In this document: piece by piece, positions 38,069 through 49,617 of the stretch
Layout: each line of letters starts with the position of its first letter
Position numbering within the stretch: position 1 is the first letter of the stretch
Source of the DNA: Methanopyrus sp. SNP6
GTDB lineage: Archaea > JAADCQ01 > Methanopyri > Methanopyrales > Methanopyraceae
Assembly: GCF_002201895.1 (NCBI RefSeq)
Contig: NZ_CP019436.1
Span: 695,456 to 759,455, forward strand
DNA length: 64,000 nucleotides
Reading direction: 5' to 3'
The notes under the pieces: model-generated
Told to the model about the DNA's origin: nothing
The model's database searches: none
Seen by the model: only the letters and a program-made list of their open reading frames with translations
Position numbers and translations under genes: made by a program

Positions 38069-38145
38069 GGGCCCGCAGCTCAGCCTGGCAGAGCGCGGCC
38101 CTTGCGAGGCCGTGGCCCCGGGTTCAAATCCCGGCGGGTCCACCA
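38069..38145 (+). tRNA. tRNA-Ala (UGC) with genome-encoded CCA and C at position 8
   Basis: All four arms fold. Acceptor GGGCCCG pairs with CGGGTCC and contains the G3-U70 pair that specifies alanine. D-stem GCTC/GAGC; anticodon stem CGGCC/GGCCG with anticodon TGC at 38103-38105; T-stem CCGGG/CCCGG with loop TTCAAAT; discriminator A; then encoded CCA (38143-38145). Position 8 (38076) is C instead of the near-universal U. In Methanopyrus such tRNAs are known to be edited C to U by the deaminase CDAT8. There is no intron. Confidence 0.97.
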
Positions 38146-38213
38146 ACCACGAATCGTTATGTTCCTCAAAACATTTCGGACCCTCGATATCGCACGAACT
38201 AGGGGTGATGACA

Positions 38214-39227
38214 ATGAATGGCAAGATCTTAACGGCTATAGGGGTAGCAGTATGCTTAGCATTAGCTACCGGCGTAGTAGCGTTCAACCCTGTAAGTAAA
38301 GTCAAGGAGTTCGACCCTAAGCATGCTTTAGACTTTGCTAAGAAGGTATGTAATCTAGGACCACGCTATGGAGGCAATGAGGCAGAGCTGAAAGCAGCCA
38401 ACATGATGGTAGCGGAGCTGAGGAAATATGGACTTAACGTACGCAAGGAAAAAGTCGATTTAGGTGGCGGTAAATATACGTACAACGTGATAGGGGAAAT
38501 TAAGGGGACTGATGAACCAAATAAGTATGTGATTGTTGGATCCCACATCGATTCGCCAGGATTCTGTGAAGGTGCTACAGATGATGCGGCAGCAATGGGA
38601 ATTCAAGTCGAAATGGCACGAATACTTGCTAAGAATTTCCGTCCGAAGAAAACTGTATTGATAATTGGATTCGGTGGTGAAGAGCTATGGTTCAAAGGAT
38701 CAGAGGCTTTCGTAAAGAAACACCCAGAGATTGTTAAAAATTGTGAAGCAGTAATCGACCTTAACTGTGTAGGTGCCGGACAGAATGTGTTCCTAACTCG
38801 GAAGAGTGCGAAACCGGAACCGGTAGAGGGGGATCCGAAGCTCATCAAACTTCTGGAAGAGTGTGCGAAAGAACTTGGACACCCGGTCACGGTAGGAGAC
38901 ACGACGTATCCGAGCGACACCTACCCGTTCTATCATAACGGGACCAAACGCGTCCCCGTGTGTCAGGTGATGAGTCAGCCGTTCGAAGTGCCACCGTGGA
39001 GTGAGTCCAACACGGCGGACAAGTTAGACCCGAAGGACATGGAGAAAGTGGGAGAAACCGTCACCCTCGCTGTTGTGAAACTGACGAATGCCGAACCCGC
39101 TTCAAAACCGCTATGGGAAGCGAAGCGCGCCGAGGAGTCCGGCGGTGCAGGTCGGCTTACGCCGGTATGGTGGGTGACCGCGCTTCTTGGAGTTGCAGCC
39201 GCACTGCTCCGGCCTCGGGGGAGATAA
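38214..39227 (+). CDS. Exported M28-family metallopeptidase with C-terminal anchor
   Basis: This 337-residue zinc aminopeptidase-like protein starts at ATG 38214 after GGGGTGATGACA and has the signal peptide KILTAIGVAVCLALATG. M28 ligands can be traced: SHIDSPGFCEGATDDAAA (His and bridging Asp), GGEE (general base and zinc Glu), and IDLNCVG (Asp). The C-terminus has a hydrophobic segment WWVTALLGVAAALL followed by RPRGR after LTP. It probably degrades peptides outside the membrane. Confidence 0.85.
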   Translation: MNGKILTAIGVAVCLALATGVVAFNPVSKVKEFDPKHALDFAKKVCNLGPRYGGNEAELKAANMMVAELRKYGLNVRKEKVDLGGGKYTYNVIGEIKGTDEPNKYVIVGSHIDSPGFCEGATDDAAAMGIQVEMARILAKNFRPKKTVLIIGFGGEELWFKGSEAFVKKHPEIVKNCEAVIDLNCVGAGQNVFLTRKSAKPEPVEGDPKLIKLLEECAKELGHPVTVGDTTYPSDTYPFYHNGTKRVPVCQVMSQPFEVPPWSESNTADKLDPKDMEKVGETVTLAVVKLTNAEPASKPLWEAKRAEESGGAGRLTPVWWVTALLGVAAALLRPRGR

Positions 39228-42207: not shown

Positions 42208-42858
42208 GTGGTTAGGGTGAAGATCTGCGGTGTAACCAGGCCCGAGGATGCAGCGACAGCCGACGAGGCGGGAACCGACGCCGTCGGTTGCGTGGTAGAA
42301 GTTCCCGTTTCCACACCACGAAAAGTGTCCGCGGAGCACGCGAACGAGGTGTTCTCCGTAGTTTCACCGTTCGTGTCGAGGGTCGCAGTGCTGATGGACA
42401 ACCTAGAACCTGTCGACCGGCTGGAAGAAGCCACTGCCGTGCAACTTCATGGAACGGAGGACACGGAAACCTGTGAAAAGCTCAGCGAGCTTGGATTCGA
42501 CGTCATCAAGACGTTCTGGGTGGATCAGCGAGGGTCCGTATGGTTGGGAGAGGAATCGATAAGGGAAGAAGTGCTAGTTGAGTACTGTGAAGTCGTGGAC
42601 GCCGTGCTCTTGGACACCAAATCCGAGGGAGGTGGAGGATCCGGTGAGCGTCACAATTGGAACGTGTCGGCACAATTGGTCAGGCGACTGAGCGTACCAG
42701 TGATCCTTGCTGGTGGTCTGAACCCGGAGAACGTCAGGGAAGCCATCGAGACCGTCAACCCGTACGCCGTCGACACATCTTCAGGGGTGGAAAAAGAGCC
42801 GGGAATCAAGGATCCTGAGGCCATAGAGAAGTTCGTGAGGGTCACCAAGTCGACTTAG
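42208..42858 (+). CDS. trpF: Phosphoribosylanthranilate isomerase
   Basis: This 216-residue TIM-barrel enzyme of tryptophan synthesis starts at GTG 42208 after GGGGAGGGAG. Features include the catalytic Cys in VKICGVTRPEDA, VQLHGTED, LLDTKSEGGGGSG, and the phosphate site ILAGGLNPENV ... AVDTSSGVE. It stands apart from other trp genes. The 3' end overlaps the convergent cobN-like gene by 17 bp. Confidence 0.93.
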   Translation: MVRVKICGVTRPEDAATADEAGTDAVGCVVEVPVSTPRKVSAEHANEVFSVVSPFVSRVAVLMDNLEPVDRLEEATAVQLHGTEDTETCEKLSELGFDVIKTFWVDQRGSVWLGEESIREEVLVEYCEVVDAVLLDTKSEGGGGSGERHNWNVSAQLVRRLSVPVILAGGLNPENVREAIETVNPYAVDTSSGVEKEPGIKDPEAIEKFVRVTKST

Positions 42859-45800
42859 TCGTGACACTGCCATATCTCATCCACACGAACCATAATATCA
42901 GCGTCCCTACTACTGCGGCCATGATGAGGTACCTGAGGATCGGTGACACGGGTGAACCCGAGGAACCACCCTGTCGTTTCAACACCTCAGCCGATGCCGC
43001 GGACCCGGTACCGTAGGTGGACACGCTGCGCGCGGGTGAGCTACCGTTTGGAGATATTCCGGAAGACTTCTGACATTTAGTCGTGATAGCCGCGGTACCC
43101 GTCACTTTCGAAAATATGTGCTCAGACGGAAAACTACGGTCCTTAGTCACGGAAGCTGAAGTAACTCCGGAAGATACGGTCGCGACTGAAGACACTCGTG
43201 TGGTAAGGATGGAGGTCGACCCTGGAGACGCCGACGTCCGCTCGCTTGACATCGTGGAACTCAGCATTGTGCTGAAGCTTGGAACGGTCGTGATTACCGG
43301 AGACACCCCCACAGAGAACGGGTTGGGGATGAGGAGTTCCACAACGGCGGTAAACTCCTCTAAGATCCCACGGAGCGCGGGGTTAAGAGCTACTGCCAAA
43401 CAGCCGCACGGACCGTACTTACTCACCATCCTGGTGAACGTCTCCAACGAGAACCGTCTGGCCGTTTCCCGAAACCTTCGCACCCACTTCTCGGCTTCTT
43501 CGAGCTCTCCGAGCTGGTATAGGACCTGATAGTGGTACGACCACCTCAGCAACTTGAAGCCGAAATCGGAATCCAGAATCACGAACACCCGGCCCACTAT
43601 CGACTCGACCACGTACGGGTTCAGCCTCTCCAAGTGCCGCACGACCTCTTGATCCAGGACGAACCGTTGAACGAGCTCGAAGAATAGCTGTCCCAGTACT
43701 CCGGCGATAGCTTTCTCGGCTACGGTAGTCGGATTCAATATCGTGGGAGCGAACAGTATCATCCACGACATCAACCGTGAAACTCGATCCATTAAGTCGT
43801 TGGCCTCTCCCGCGGTACGGAGCGATAGTAACCAGTCCCTGTCCATCCACAGTGAGTGAAACTCTCGGGAGAGCTCACCGAACAGCTGACGGATACGCAA
43901 CGAAGACACTTCGTCGAGCACCAACGGATCGGGCAGGCCTCTTACCAGTATCGCAACGGCCAGAAGGCCACCGTAGAATTCGATCACGTCTTCCGCTAGA
44001 ACACCCCAGAGCCTATCGGTCACGGGCTTCAGGACGGAATCGACGATGAGGAGGTCTATTCGGAGGAGTCCCGGGGCTGGTTCAGGACCTTCCGGGGTTA
44101 AGACGTTCTCGAGCTTGGACGAGAGGGAGCGAGCTAACGTTTCCCACTCCTCGGGTTTCAAGCGCTCCGTCGCGGCTATGACACCCATCGTGTAGTCAGC
44201 GGGACAGTAGACGCACAATGCGGCCCTGATCGCGGCCTTCTCGATCGGCGTTCCGTTCACCTGGACGTCGTAGAGGAACTTCACCGCCCATGCTGCGTAC
44301 CAGAGGGGACCAGGTCGGAACGTCGGGCGCACGTCGACGTCACCTAGGGAAGCGGAGAACTTCCGGAGCACCTCTATACCTCTATCCAAGAGTTTCGGGT
44401 CCAACCGTATCGATGCCAACGATTTACGGAAGTCCGGATCCTTACACCTGTCAGGGAGGGTCTTCAACAAGTTTGCTACGGCGAAGATGTCCTTCGGGGC
44501 CCTAAGAACGGCTTCGACGTGTGACTTAAGGAGCGCCCGCCCAGCCGGCATTCGGGCGAATATCGCCTCGAGCCCCTGGCATACGAGGACCGGGGAGTAA
44601 ACGGGGGATCCAGATAACACGTAACGCCCTCCCACGCGGTTGACACCGGATGATTTTAGTAGAACCGCGAGAGACAGCCCACGATCGTTGAGAACATCTG
44701 CGGCGGATAGAACGAAGAAAGTGTTCTGCTTAACAGTGACCCACCCGGAAAGCATCCACGCCGTCTCAGACGGTATCAGCTCGGGGTTCAGCAAGCAGAG
44801 CATTCTACCCGTAGGTAGCACGGAGATGTCTACGGTCGGATCACCCGGCGGGCCCATGGGCACCGACTGCCCTTCCAGAACGCGCAGGAGGTTCTCGATT
44901 TCGAGCTTAGCAGAAGTGACGATGAGATCTCTGATACGTTCCATCTCACGGTACAGCTTAGGGTAGCGAAGCCGGAGCTCCGATGGGTTACGAACGAGTG
45001 ACTGCCACTCCTTCCACATGCGATCGAAGAGCTCCAGTGCCCTTTCCCCGTACTTAGCTATGTTCTCCGGTGAGAGCATCGACTCGAGGTCCTCGCCGTA
45101 GGTTTCGGACGCGAGCTTCAGGTACTCACGGAACAGCAGCGCGGAGACGTACTCACGGACCTCTTCCGAGGTCACAAGGCCGTAGACGTGCAGATGACGG
45201 GCCAACTTGACCGGCGTCGGCGATTCACCGTGAGCTTGCATGATATGCAAGTGAGAGTGGAGCTCGGAAACGAGACGGCTAAAGTCCGTCCGGGCCATCC
45301 GTTCCACGTCATTCCAAGTGAGGCCCATCCACTCATAAATCCGGGTGCGCTTGAGGAGTTCCATGATCACGGGCTTCAGCTTCTCCTCCACCTCGGGATT
45401 ACCCTCGAAGACGTGGAAGCACGAGTGCAGCAGCTTTACGAGTGTGTTGAGGTAGAAGTCATAAGCCGTAGAGGGCGCGGGTGGGAGGTAGCTCAGGACC
45501 ACGGCGGACGTCCTCCACTTGACGTTGTAGAGCTCGCCGTTCGTCGGACACCACAGGTACACGTGGGGTACGTCGCCTAGGAGCACGGTCGGGAAGTCGA
45601 TGTGAGACAAGAACGTGCGGCGCAACGGCAGCCACTCCAGCGTACCGTGAGATCCCACGTGTACGACGACGTCCACGTGATGCTTCAGCCAGAGGTAAAC
45701 TGCGAGGTAATAATGCGGCGGAGGTAGGAGCAATGAGTGGTAAGCGGCCATCCCCCAGAGTAGACCGCGTGGAGGTTGAGGTAATAGTATGATGTTTCCG

Positions 45801-46846
45801 AACTTCAGTCCCGGCACGACGAACTCGTCGTTGACCACCATAACATCACCCGGTGGAGGACCCCATCCGAAGATACCGGTATGGTACCGCCGTTCGAACT
45901 CGCGACCCAGATCGACGGCACGTCGGAACGCGCGCTCCAGCTCGTTATGCCCAGACTTTCCGGCGGCGTAACGGAGCAGTGCGTCGACAAGCTCCCGCAG
46001 AGCTTTCAGGACGTCGGTTGTGTCGGGTACCCCGAGGTCGTTCAGGAGAGTCTCAACGTCGCGTAACATGGCGTTCAGGTTGCGGGACAACGTCTCGAGT
46101 GATCTACCTTCCAGGGCTCGGCCTTCCAGGACTCGGTGCAAGAGCTCGGCGTATCCGTACAGGAGACCCGGAATACCGTACTCCACGTAGAGACGAACCG
46201 GCTCGGGGAGCCGATTGTACCACTTCAAGTACTCCGAGACGGGGATGGTCATGAGGTATGCGTGATGGTCGTACATGGCGCGGAGGTAGTCACCGTGCCA
46301 CCAGCCCACGTTCACACCATACTTCTCGATCATCCTAGCTAGCTTTTGGGAGATTTTCTGAACTAGCTCGGCGGCCTCGTCCCAACGCCCTTCCCGCTCG
46401 AGTTGGGCTATCTTCAGGAGTTGATCATCCCAAGGCGTACTCACTCTGTAACCGGCCGCCTTCAGGTTCGCCATGATGTTGACGAGAGACCCGAAGACGT
46501 CCAATCCCGACGCCCGGATCGATTCCCTACCCGGAGGCCAGTCGTAGTACACTAGCGCGATCACCTTCCTATCGTTCGGTTTCTCGGACAGTTCTCTCCA
46601 CCGATCGACTAGCTTCTGCACGATCTCGGCGTTCTGTCGATACAGCTTCCCGCCAAAGTGAGTGGGCGGCGTCACCACCTCGCCGCGGGAGTCAGGCATG
46701 ATCACCTCGCGGAACAGCGCTCCGGTCGGATACCCTAAGAAGTCGGACCAGTAGACGTCAGGCTTGACACCTGCGTCGGGTGTGTGGAACTGAAGCTGCG
46801 ACGATGCCGTTACCGGCATCAAGAGTGGTAGGATTGGGAGCACCAC
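42842..46846 (-). CDS. Exported, membrane-anchored CobN/Mg-chelatase H-like protein
   Basis: This 1334-residue protein belongs to the CobN/BchH superfamily. It has the conserved core GSHGTLEWLP (398-407), preceded by LLPQPPRG and a typical region from about residue 60. Unlike cytosolic CobN, it begins with a hydrophobic signal-like segment (VVLPILPLLMPVTASSQ). It ends with a Ser/Thr-rich stalk (about 1170-1300), then SPVSP and a transmembrane helix near 1305-1325. The motif occurs about 150 residues earlier than I expect for canonical CobN. An extracytoplasmic role in metal or corrinoid/tetrapyrrole handling is an inference. Start is GTG 46846 or 46843. Confidence 0.8.
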   Translation of the reverse strand: MVLPILPLLMPVTASSQLQFHTPDAGVKPDVYWSDFLGYPTGALFREVIMPDSRGEVVTPPTHFGGKLYRQNAEIVQKLVDRWRELSEKPNDRKVIALVYYDWPPGRESIRASGLDVFGSLVNIMANLKAAGYRVSTPWDDQLLKIAQLEREGRWDEAAELVQKISQKLARMIEKYGVNVGWWHGDYLRAMYDHHAYLMTIPVSEYLKWYNRLPEPVRLYVEYGIPGLLYGYAELLHRVLEGRALEGRSLETLSRNLNAMLRDVETLLNDLGVPDTTDVLKALRELVDALLRYAAGKSGHNELERAFRRAVDLGREFERRYHTGIFGWGPPPGDVMVVNDEFVVPGLKFGNIILLPQPPRGLLWGMAAYHSLLLPPPHYYLAVYLWLKHHVDVVVHVGSHGTLEWLPLRRTFLSHIDFPTVLLGDVPHVYLWCPTNGELYNVKWRTSAVVLSYLPPAPSTAYDFYLNTLVKLLHSCFHVFEGNPEVEEKLKPVIMELLKRTRIYEWMGLTWNDVERMARTDFSRLVSELHSHLHIMQAHGESPTPVKLARHLHVYGLVTSEEVREYVSALLFREYLKLASETYGEDLESMLSPENIAKYGERALELFDRMWKEWQSLVRNPSELRLRYPKLYREMERIRDLIVTSAKLEIENLLRVLEGQSVPMGPPGDPTVDISVLPTGRMLCLLNPELIPSETAWMLSGWVTVKQNTFFVLSAADVLNDRGLSLAVLLKSSGVNRVGGRYVLSGSPVYSPVLVCQGLEAIFARMPAGRALLKSHVEAVLRAPKDIFAVANLLKTLPDRCKDPDFRKSLASIRLDPKLLDRGIEVLRKFSASLGDVDVRPTFRPGPLWYAAWAVKFLYDVQVNGTPIEKAAIRAALCVYCPADYTMGVIAATERLKPEEWETLARSLSSKLENVLTPEGPEPAPGLLRIDLLIVDSVLKPVTDRLWGVLAEDVIEFYGGLLAVAILVRGLPDPLVLDEVSSLRIRQLFGELSREFHSLWMDRDWLLSLRTAGEANDLMDRVSRLMSWMILFAPTILNPTTVAEKAIAGVLGQLFFELVQRFVLDQEVVRHLERLNPYVVESIVGRVFVILDSDFGFKLLRWSYHYQVLYQLGELEEAEKWVRRFRETARRFSLETFTRMVSKYGPCGCLAVALNPALRGILEEFTAVVELLIPNPFSVGVSPVITTVPSFSTMLSSTMSSERTSASPGSTSILTTRVSSVATVSSGVTSASVTKDRSFPSEHIFSKVTGTAAITTKCQKSSGISPNGSSPARSVSTYGTGSAASAEVLKRQGGSSGSPVSPILRYLIMAAVVGTLILWFVWMRYGSVTTKSTW
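46107..46136 (-). repeat. 15-bp tandem duplication in the cobN-like gene
   Basis: CCTTCCAGGGCTCGG is followed directly by CCTTCCAGGACTCGG (14 of 15 identical), giving the protein repeat LEGRALEGRSLE near residue 240. It is a small in-frame duplication. Confidence 0.7.
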
Positions 46847-47061: not shown

Positions 47062-48372
47062 GTGTCTAAGTTGTACTCCATAGTCGCCGTCGCCGCGATG
47101 GTGTTGCTAACTGGCGCCGCTGCGGACCTTCAGGAGTACAAGGAGGCGTACTCCGCCGCTGCTAAGATAGAGGAGTACGGGGAAGGAGTCAGGGATTCTC
47201 TAAACATCATCGGCGGCTTCCAGCCACCGTGCGGTCTCAAGGTGGTACCCACGGCGTACCCGTACATGGCGTTCAAGGACGATAAGGATGTTATCAGTAA
47301 GGTGTTCCAGGGCACGGACGTAGCCGAATCCGAGTCGTGGACCGAGGTCGGTCCGGGAGACTTCAGGGCGCTGATCTACGGCATTCACGAACTGGGTGAG
47401 AACTGGTTCGAGCGAGTAAAGGTGGTCGCCGATCTGGCGCAGGAGCCGGCTGATTACGCGCTGAAGGTCCACGAGGAGACCCACGCATGGGAGGGAGCAG
47501 TTGAGAAGGTCGGAGAGACCTGGGAAGACTGGGAAGCCCACAAGGGTGACGAGAACCTGAAGACAGCCATCGCGTCGCGTGTGCTGGCGGTTCTAGGACT
47601 GGTCGTGTCCGAGAACTGGCGGGCCGTCTTCAACGAGACGAACAAAGCGGCTCAAATCGCCGAAAACGTGGGTAAGGTGACGATACCGGCGGGCGTCTAC
47701 GGTAACGACGACCCGATCGAGCTGGACTTCAGCAAGTGCGAGAGTCCGGAGGACGTGACTAACGTGATTAAAAACAACCTAATCAAGGTAGTGTTCGGTA
47801 CCGACGATTTGACACCGGATCGCGTGATCGAGCTGATCGACTTAGAGGCCAAGCATTTCGGGCTCGGCGACAACTTCGTGGAGACCTATATGGAGGGTGG
47901 CCAGTACCAGCCGCACGAGGGTGGCTTCACGGTAGAAGATATGAAGAAAGTGATCGAGATGTTCAAGAGCGGTAATGACGTGTACGGACAGAAGCTATCC
48001 GAGGATGCCCTGGCGTTCGCGATCCTGTTTAACATCGAGGACGTTTGGGCTACCTACGAAGAGTACGTGCACCAGTACGGACACTTCTTCCCACCGGCCG
48101 AGAGCGACCTCAAGCTGGCGTGCGACAAGGTCGAGGAGAACGCGAAGACCGTCGAGAACGTGTTGGACAAGCTGAACGCGTGGGCCGATGTGGGGATCAC
48201 TAAGGCTAAGTTCGAGTCGAACCCACTGGAGTGCGCACCGGCGGTCAAGGACTGGGCCGTGGGCGAGCTGTTCAACGTCGTGGAGAAACTTGAAAGGAAG
48301 AAAGTCCCGGTGAACCCAGTAGCGGTACTGGTCGGACTGCTGGCGGCGCTGGCAGTCCTCCGGCGCCGCTAG
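47062..48372 (+). CDS. Secreted protein of unknown function with PVNP C-terminal anchor
   Basis: This 436-residue protein has a clear signal peptide (LYSIVAVAAMVLLTGAAA), an acidic helical extracellular domain and a tail VPVNPVAVLVGLLAALAVL followed by RRR. Residues 137-141 read HEETH, the HExxH pattern of zinc metallopeptidases, but no third ligand or family is recognised. Three Cys lie in the mature protein. The start is GTG with an excellent ribosome site. Confidence 0.65.
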   Translation: MSKLYSIVAVAAMVLLTGAAADLQEYKEAYSAAAKIEEYGEGVRDSLNIIGGFQPPCGLKVVPTAYPYMAFKDDKDVISKVFQGTDVAESESWTEVGPGDFRALIYGIHELGENWFERVKVVADLAQEPADYALKVHEETHAWEGAVEKVGETWEDWEAHKGDENLKTAIASRVLAVLGLVVSENWRAVFNETNKAAQIAENVGKVTIPAGVYGNDDPIELDFSKCESPEDVTNVIKNNLIKVVFGTDDLTPDRVIELIDLEAKHFGLGDNFVETYMEGGQYQPHEGGFTVEDMKKVIEMFKSGNDVYGQKLSEDALAFAILFNIEDVWATYEEYVHQYGHFFPPAESDLKLACDKVEENAKTVENVLDKLNAWADVGITKAKFESNPLECAPAVKDWAVGELFNVVEKLERKKVPVNPVAVLVGLLAALAVLRRR

Positions 48373-48388: not shown

Positions 48389-48432
48389 TTGTGTTTCTTC
48401 ATCACTTACGATCCCGAACGGGGGTGCATGGT

Positions 48433-49617
48433 GTGAGGTTAGTTCATGGTGGGATACTATCTCTCGTCGCTGCCCTCTGCTTGTTGGGCGCGGTCGAGGC
48501 GGACCTCGTGAGTGATGTCCAACAGCGCTGCGAGCAGGCAGTGGATTGGCTCCTTAAGAACCAGCAACCGGACGGCGGTTGGTTGTACGAGGGGACCCAG
48601 AAATCCTCCGCAATGGACACCGGGGTGGTCCTACTGGGATTGTGCGAAGTATATGATAAGCTCCCTAAGGGTCAACAAAGTAAAGTACGAGAGGCCGTGG
48701 ACCACGGCGTCGAGTTCCTGAAGAAGTGTTGGGACGACAACAGAAAGATGTTCTGGGATTACCCTAACAGAGGAGGAAGGGAAGAGTACATGCCGATGTA
48801 CACCGTTCACGCGCTGATGGGTCTCATCGCTGTCGAGAAGAAGTTCCCGGATATCGCTGAAAAATACGGTGTGAGTAAATTCATCGATGAAGCCCTAAGA
48901 AAGCTGCTGAGTATGCAAAACGACGACGGATCATGGAGCAACTTCGGCCCGGGTTCGTGGCAGAACCCGGGGCGGTGTACAGGACTCGTCGTATGGTTGG
49001 CGGAGTGGTCCGGGAGGTACGGACCCAGTGACAAGCGCATCGAAAGTGGCCTTAAGTACATCGAAAGTCATCTAGGGAAGTCGCCTTTAGGTGGGATGAT
49101 CTCCAGCAACGGGCCGAAGATCGACTTCACGGCTTGGGACATGCTGGCGTTCTACTTCTCGGGTAACAAGTATTACCGTGGTTTCGTGCCGAAGCTGCAG
49201 GAGGGAGTGCTAGGGTTCCAGCGTAAGGATGGTGCGTTCGCTGCTCACACGTCGGTGTACGACAGTGAGTACGGTCCGGAAGGAACCGCAGCTCCGTGTC
49301 CACACAAGACGGCGCGAGTGTTGTTCGCGTTGATGCTGACGGGAGCCGACCCGAACGACGACCGAGTGAAAAAAGCCGTGGAGTTCCTACTGAACACGAG
49401 GAGCCAATCAGAGGGAGCGTGGTTCTGGCCTACGATGAACGACCCATCGAAGCCGCAGGAAAACCCGATGAGGGCGTACTGTACGGGTTGGTGTCTAGCC
49501 GCACTGGGTGCGTGGCTGCAGAAGGCCAAGAGAGGCGGAGTACCGGTATCACCGTTGGCAGTGCTGGCGCTGGCGTTCATTCCAGCTCGTCGAGCTTGGC
49601 GGGCAGGTATTCCTTGA
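48433..49617 (+). CDS. Secreted alpha/alpha-toroid protein (prenyltransferase/squalene-cyclase-like repeats)
   Basis: This protein of about 394 residues begins with GTG 48433 after GGGGGTGCATG and has the signal peptide LVHGGILSLVAALCLLGAVEA. The repeats AVDWLLKNQQPDGGW, KLLSMQNDDGSW and VLGFQRKDGAF are the helix-turn units of the toroid fold. Catalytic DxDD or zinc sites cannot be assigned. The C-terminus VPVSPLAVLALAFI then RR matches the tail of the preceding gene. The gene overlaps the convergent top6A by 41 bp. Confidence 0.7.
   Translation: MRLVHGGILSLVAALCLLGAVEADLVSDVQQRCEQAVDWLLKNQQPDGGWLYEGTQKSSAMDTGVVLLGLCEVYDKLPKGQQSKVREAVDHGVEFLKKCWDDNRKMFWDYPNRGGREEYMPMYTVHALMGLIAVEKKFPDIAEKYGVSKFIDEALRKLLSMQNDDGSWSNFGPGSWQNPGRCTGLVVWLAEWSGRYGPSDKRIESGLKYIESHLGKSPLGGMISSNGPKIDFTAWDMLAFYFSGNKYYRGFVPKLQEGVLGFQRKDGAFAAHTSVYDSEYGPEGTAAPCPHKTARVLFALMLTGADPNDDRVKKAVEFLLNTRSQSEGAWFWPTMNDPSKPQENPMRAYCTGWCLAALGAWLQKAKRGGVPVSPLAVLALAFIPARRAWRAGIP

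Follow-up and report, generated by a model that had tools for sequence, protein, structure and literature searches.

Exported, stalked CobN-fold proteins of Methanopyrus and a possible association of their family with a MotA/ExbB-DUF2149 motor

The window, a stretch of 64,000 nucleotides from the 1.42 Mb, single-contig genome of a Methanopyrus, encodes on its reverse strand (positions 42842 to 46846, GTG start) a protein of 1334 amino acids. An earlier note on this DNA took the protein to be a CobN homolog, and the match to Pfam model PF02514 (CobN-Mg_chel) confirms this with an E-value of 2.6e-92. The reading frame shares 17 nucleotides at its 3' end with a trpF-like frame on the opposite strand. 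It is a real gene rather than a chance one, and belongs to a family of five exported proteins in this genome. Its orthologs from three further Methanopyrus genomes align with it at 83, 54, and 58% identity (G001, that is AV19, then G002 and G003, respectively).

Residues 1-16 (46799 to 46846, reverse strand) form a signal-like hydrophobic segment, MVLPILPLLMPVTASS, which is short, and the n-region as called contains no basic residue, so the signal is weak taken alone. The AV19 ortholog has a hydrophobic segment at the equivalent position, and the G002 ortholog begins with a clear, textbook signal peptide (GGRWRLLIALLLALQPAAADA). Because residues 18-60 are conserved at the protein level across four species, down to 54% identity, translation should start upstream of residue 18; a true start farther downstream, which would remove the signal segment, is thereby disfavored.

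At the other end of the protein lies a Ser/Thr-rich stalk of approximately 130 residues (residues 1171-1300; 42947 to 43336, reverse strand), in which Ser and Thr make up 38% of residues, compared to 9.5% in the body. In windows of 100 residues their content peaks at 45% in the stalk, while no window that begins within about the first 1070 residues exceeds 16%. A hydrophobic helix, at about residues 1303-1322, and a short tail ending in Trp complete the sequence (residues 1303-1334; 42845 to 42940, reverse strand). The signal-like N-terminus, the stalk of more than 100 residues, and the C-terminal helix described earlier are therefore all borne out, and this architecture supports a protein that is exported, held on a stalk, and anchored in the membrane, with its tetrapyrrole cavity, as had been proposed for the chelatase-like domain, outside the cell. 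Such a predicted location is at odds with the cytosolic location of CobN, and the N-terminal segment and C-terminal helix together would give the protein the export and terminal membrane anchor characteristic of HmuS.

That the protein is instead a conventional CobN cobaltochelatase of the cytosol, its N-terminus having been called wrongly, is suggested by the CobN family name and by the shortness of the called signal and its lack of basic residues, but we reject this reading as highly improbable. The N-terminal region is conserved and accompanied by a stalk and a C-terminal membrane helix, the genome encodes a separate cytosolic CobN of about 1200 residues, and the protein falls far below the cutoffs of the NCBIfam CobN equivalog models (166.8 of 822 bits for TIGR02257, 186.9 of 1248 for NF004644). 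In most exported CobN proteins of Methanopyrus, the last residue, beyond the membrane helix, is Trp (in the endings KSTW, RGW, WNW, ARW, and GKW); in the window this end lies at 42845.

The chelatase body (residues 17-1185; 43292 to 46798, reverse strand) was modeled by AlphaFold from an alignment of 42 sequences, with pLDDT 85.8 and pTM 0.88. Foldseek searches with this model returned HmuS (PDB 9d26, E-value 6.5e-32) as the top hit, followed by CobN (7c6o) and ChlH, all with E-values of 1e-23 or better, and HmuS was also the top match by phmmer against PDB sequences. The PF02514 match and the fold of the body place the protein in the CobN/ChlH/HmuS superfamily of class I chelatase large subunits. 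Its body fold is shared with the magnesium chelatase subunit ChlH/BchH (4zhj), which differs in being cytosolic and driven by ATP through ChlI/ChlD, and the score against the BchH equivalog model TIGR02025 is far too low, 161.5 of 829 bits. With CobN it shares the fold, the HxGxHG motif, and an Asp-type second motif; CobN, however, is a cytosolic enzyme that works with the AAA+ subunits CobS/CobT.

For HmuS, the active site is indicated to comprise His-538, His-1209, and Glu-1212 (PMC12583661). The domain III motif VHVGSHGTLEW (residues 395-405; 45632 to 45664, reverse strand) contains the HxGxHG motif as HVGSHG, in which His400 corresponds to His-538. Domain V of the protein is a poor match, and in place of the HmuS motif LSLDHxxEFMGG its motif reads AEDVIEFYGG (residues 951-960; 43967 to 43996, reverse strand), where Glu956 corresponds to Glu-1212 and Asp953 occupies the place of His-1209. 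All of His396, His400, Asp953, and Glu956 are invariant in the four orthologs. The alignment to HmuS starts at HmuS residue 340, and no counterpart to the preceding sequence, which includes haem site 1 of the head/neck region (Met-79 and His-254), was found by sequence alignment. The candidate active-site residues His400, Asp953, and Glu956 are thus kept, with Asp in place of His-1209, while the region of haem site 1 is absent.

The protein and HmuS (9d26, 9p4s) have in common the CobN fold, a predicted extracytoplasmic location, a C-terminal membrane helix, the HxGxHG motif, and an association with MotA/ExbB and DUF2149 genes. Apart from the sequence differences above, the Methanopyrus protein is archaeal, bears a long Ser/Thr stalk, and is not set in an hmuYRSTUV operon: no HmuY or TonB receptor is encoded beside it, and MotA/ExbB, DUF2149, and DUF2162 genes occur elsewhere in the genome, unlinked. 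Because it lacks two sequence features that define HmuS and also fails the CobN and BchH cutoffs, we regard it as a variant that is neither HmuS nor CobN. In a tree of 40 sequences, built by a quick method and containing long branches, a single branch with SH-aLRT support of 99 separates exported from cytosolic CobN proteins, and the protein itself is divergent, with a branch of length 1.9. It had no match in viral contigs.

Genome searches, on which the paralog counts for Methanopyrus rest, identified five exported, stalked CobN proteins in this genome, with lengths of 1334, 1736, 1775, 1944, and 2112 residues, and orthologs of the exported CobN proteins are present in other Methanopyrus genomes. 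In addition to the cytosolic CobN of about 1200 residues, a second one is split into two divergent genes (L020:7140-10477, equivalent to G000:C1:885139-888203), with the N-terminal half on the forward strand and the C-terminal half on the reverse strand. This arrangement recurs in G001, G002, and G003, and the N-terminal half is found in G004 as well; in G000 the C-terminal half is broken in two and contains in-frame stops. The paralog of 1944 residues has lost the catalytic His (RIGSRG in place of HxGxHG), a loss seen both in this species and in AV19 (L017:3770-9604 and L053:4357-10185), and is likely a pseudo-chelatase head. At least one head is therefore no usual chelatase. The G002 ortholog of this paralog (L057:5108-11189) is split into two overlapping reading frames, reflecting a frameshift, decay, or a sequencing error.

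Each of the five exported CobN genes adjoins a gene for an exported alpha/alpha-toroid protein, all five toroids being of a single family, and the pairing is kept in orthologs. The same arrangement occurs at the named Methanopyri locus L075, and a search of the whole genome with the Pfam family of the toroid matched four of the five loci and nothing else. In the window, the toroid T1 (48391 to 49617, forward strand; 408 residues) was modeled by AlphaFold with pLDDT 76.5, and its squalene-hopene-cyclase-like fold matches squalene-hopene cyclases and other (alpha/alpha)6 barrels in Foldseek searches. An active squalene-hopene cyclase was nevertheless rejected, since only the fold matches and the catalytic DxDD is missing from all five toroids. 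A corrinoid binder of the transcobalamin type was rejected also: the top 50 Foldseek hits are squalene-hopene cyclases, glycoside hydrolases, and alpha2-macroglobulin, with no transcobalamin among them, so the assignment goes no further than a generic alpha/alpha toroid. The AV19 toroid T5 (L055:10031-11385) is split into two overlapping reading frames, again by a frameshift, decay, or a sequencing error.

Between the CobN and toroid genes is a divergently oriented gene for an exported protein, U1 (47062 to 48372, forward strand; 436 residues), with a hydrophobic helix at each end and the same position in three other species. U1 has no Pfam match and no relative among solved structures. Its motif HEETH, of the zincin-like HExxH form, is invariant in four species, and its conservation of 70-90% is above that of the neighboring CobN. 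At the locus of the 1736-residue paralog, the gene after the toroid encodes an exported CbiX/CfbA-like protein, U2 (L021:13985-15511, forward strand), with orthologs in G001, G002, and G003 and with the motifs HGS and PAFxxxGGxH...IPE. The best member of its family matches Pfam CbiX with an E-value of 8e-6; an hhalign comparison to the Methanopyrus CbiX is colinear over HGS and PxFxxxGxH...IP, with an E-value of 0.002 and a probability of only 14%; and a search of the PDB gave no match. U2 may be described as a secreted, class II chelatase-like protein encoded next to an exported class I paralog.

Several of these exported proteins share a C-terminal pattern, consisting of a short PVxP-like motif, a hydrophobic stretch, and basic residues (often RRR). 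Carriers are the proteins encoded at 47062-48372 and 48391-49617 in the window and those at L017:9619-11016, L019:12456-14204, and L021:13985-15511. The pattern resembles a sorting signal, which an archaeosortase might recognize. Elsewhere in the window, at 38069-39227, a tRNA-Ala gene overlaps the called start of a reading frame for an exported M28 peptidase, whose true start is probably further downstream.

Exported CobN-like proteins are already known as BtuS and HmuS (PMC6460266, PMC12583661, PMC13227078). HmuS is a membrane-anchored haem dechelatase of gut bacteria, and archaeal homologs exist whose function is called unclear in the EMBO J paper on its structure (PMC12583661). BtuS1/2 of B. 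fragilis are likewise exported, CobN-like, and untied to B12 synthesis, and metalloporphyrin salvage was proposed for them (Rodionov 2003, as cited in PMC6460266); the Methanopyrus proteins differ in being archaeal, stalked, paired with toroids, and present as several paralogs per genome. The earlier presentation of an extracytoplasmic CobN-fold protein as a departure from a cytosolic rule accordingly does not hold, as HmuS and BtuS are precedents (PMC12583661, PMC6460266), and with HmuS such an enzyme that has no AAA+ partner is already on record.

What is new is the gene neighborhood. Related exported CobN proteins proved to be widespread among methanogens, and in archaea, as well as in bacteria that lack an outer membrane, their genes recurrently adjoin genes for a MotA/TolQ/ExbB-type channel and DUF2149, usually with DUF2162, a predicted transporter. 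The open-access literature searched contained no report of this archaeal motor link, of a single motor with five heads, of the toroid pairing, or of the exported CbiX-like protein, and DUF2162 was named in none of its papers. DUF2149 has a single membrane helix with an Asp, as do ExbD, TolR, and MotB. The resemblance to the ExbB-ExbD, TolQ-TolR, and MotA-MotB motors thus comprises this helix and the MotA/ExbB match in Pfam; DUF2149, however, is a Pfam family of its own, and the partner proposed here is a chelatase-fold protein rather than TonB, Pal, or a flagellum.

In a set of 61 archaeal genomes, the nine that encode DUF2149 are precisely the nine that encode an exported CobN, although these are not independent, as five are Methanopyrus and two come from one genus. 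The other CobN-bearing genomes of the 61 (G011, G025, and G046) have only forms of about 1200 residues, no C-terminal helix, and no DUF2149. In loci fetched from outside Methanopyrus, 7 of 13 C-anchored CobN genes have genes of the DUF2162-MotA/ExbB-DUF2149 trio within 6 kb, but only 2 of 73 others do (Fisher p about 1e-5). Both exceptions stem from one Cupriavidus locus, which encodes an exported-looking CobN with a borderline C-terminal helix (the first of the two) and a cytosolic CobN. For the methanogen phylum of G048, 24 of 50 sampled genomes have DUF2149 and a CobN no more than 6 kb apart, against roughly 1-6% expected by chance. That phylum also has exceptions of both kinds: in three genomes DUF2149 is present but there is no CobN match, and in one CobN is present but DUF2149 is not, so the motor may also serve other partners.

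In the hmu operon of Bacteroidota, the channel and DUF2149 go by the names HmuU and HmuV (PMC10434189), and the pair is seen as such in the Prevotella hmu locus. The Prevotella HmuT is not supported by Pfam as a member of DUF2162, so the transporter slot varies. HmuU and HmuV have been assigned to powering the outer-membrane receptor HmuR (EMBO J paper, PMC12583661) and otherwise to energization of TonB receptors or inner-membrane haem transport. The pair is present, however, in archaea and in Carboxydocella, a bacterium of a monoderm lineage, and in Trichlorobacter it shares one gene run with a separate and complete TonB/ExbB/ExbD set. In cells that lack an outer membrane, no TonB receptor in need of power would be expected. 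These occurrences favor a role of the pair for the exported CobN itself, and, provided that the motor link is real, they suggest that the chelatase, not an outer-membrane receptor, may be what HmuU/HmuV drive.

The lack of an ATP-driven partner outside the membrane, asserted previously, would not mean the lack of any drive, since motor genes recurrently adjoin exported CobN genes and Methanopyrus encodes one such set. We tentatively propose, as a possibility well short of even, that in archaea and monoderm bacteria the exported CobN-fold chelatases draw their power from a membrane ion gradient by way of a MotA/ExbB-DUF2149 motor dedicated to them. Such a motor would be the equivalent, without ATP, of the AAA+ pairs ChlI/D and CobS/T, and in Methanopyrus one motor would serve five interchangeable stalked heads, each with its own toroid. 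Each of five Methanopyrus genomes has exactly one trio, located away from the CobN genes. This lack of linkage, together with the three genomes that have DUF2149 but no CobN, would fit a motor unrelated to the exported CobN proteins, which powers some other envelope process while the exported proteins need no energy; given the exact co-occurrence in 61 archaeal genomes and the repeated close linkage elsewhere, also in organisms without an outer membrane, we consider that reading rather unlikely. Weighing against our proposal, the B. thetaiotaomicron HmuS is able to dechelate in vitro when given NADH, no motor being present (PMC12583661). A true link to the motor would show how the metal of a tetrapyrrole could be removed outside the cell, where ATP is not available.

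Our preferred explanation, in which our confidence is about evenly divided, is a surface system resembling HmuS and BtuS that binds and probably demetallates tetrapyrroles and is run by the ion gradient via MotA/ExbB and DUF2149. The export architecture, fold, retained active-site residues, toroid pairing, and motor co-occurrence are supported by homology, motifs, and conserved gene neighbors; the substrate, the direction of metal transfer, motor coupling, and the role of the toroid we infer. A metallo-tetrapyrrole (corrinoid, F430-like, or haem-like) would be captured outside the membrane, and its metal probably removed between His400 and Asp953/Glu956 in the CobN cavity. Metal or ring might then be taken in by a membrane transporter, for instance DUF2162. 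The motor would supply the conformational work done by AAA+ subunits for cytosolic CobN and ChlH, and one motor set would serve all five heads of Methanopyrus. The surface role tied to tetrapyrroles or metals suggested in the earlier note is thus retained as the best reading. Against the explanation stand the Asp rather than His at the second axial position, the missing counterpart of haem site 1, the unlinked trio in Methanopyrus, and the lost His of the 1944-residue paralog, such that not all heads can be catalytic.

With the head and haem-site region of HmuS missing, the protein may only bind. The body would then be a surface scavenger or chaperone for tetrapyrroles or metal, devoid of chelatase activity, that passes its ligand to a permease, a reading to which the poor domain V match and the paralog without catalytic His also lend support. 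Moreover, BtuS mutants of B. fragilis retain haem dechelation (PMC6460266), and a haem chaperone role has been proposed for P. gingivalis HmuS (PMC13227078). The invariance of His400, Asp953, and Glu956 in four orthologs and the confidently predicted body fold speak against it, and we view it as possible but the less probable course. The preferred surface system would offer a concrete, testable role for the many methanogen proteins that carry the annotation cobaltochelatase CobN, and bears on how methanogens, with their very high needs for nickel and cobalt, might recycle F430 and corrinoids of dead cells.

A substrate-specific version that overlaps the preferred explanation has the protein stripping or gathering nickel or cobalt from F430 or corrinoids when these metals are scarce. 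We entertain it with reserve, as a minority prospect. A methanogen protein annotated CobN1, with no paralog specified, reached a high level only under nickel limitation (PMC12350162), and a Trichlorobacter exported CobN is encoded inside a corrinoid cluster, but no such metal genes occur beside the Methanopyrus gene, and the hydrogenase and corrinoid contexts come from distant bacteria. Across contexts there are hints of several metals: haem iron in Bacteroidota (PMC12583661), corrinoid in Trichlorobacter, and nickel in Runella and for CobN1. On the Runella plasmid (L161:3887-9600), an exported CobN with MotA/ExbB and DUF2149 is encoded beside a NicO-like transporter and hypCDE/hypF, genes of NiFe-hydrogenase maturation, which suggests a nickel context for that locus.
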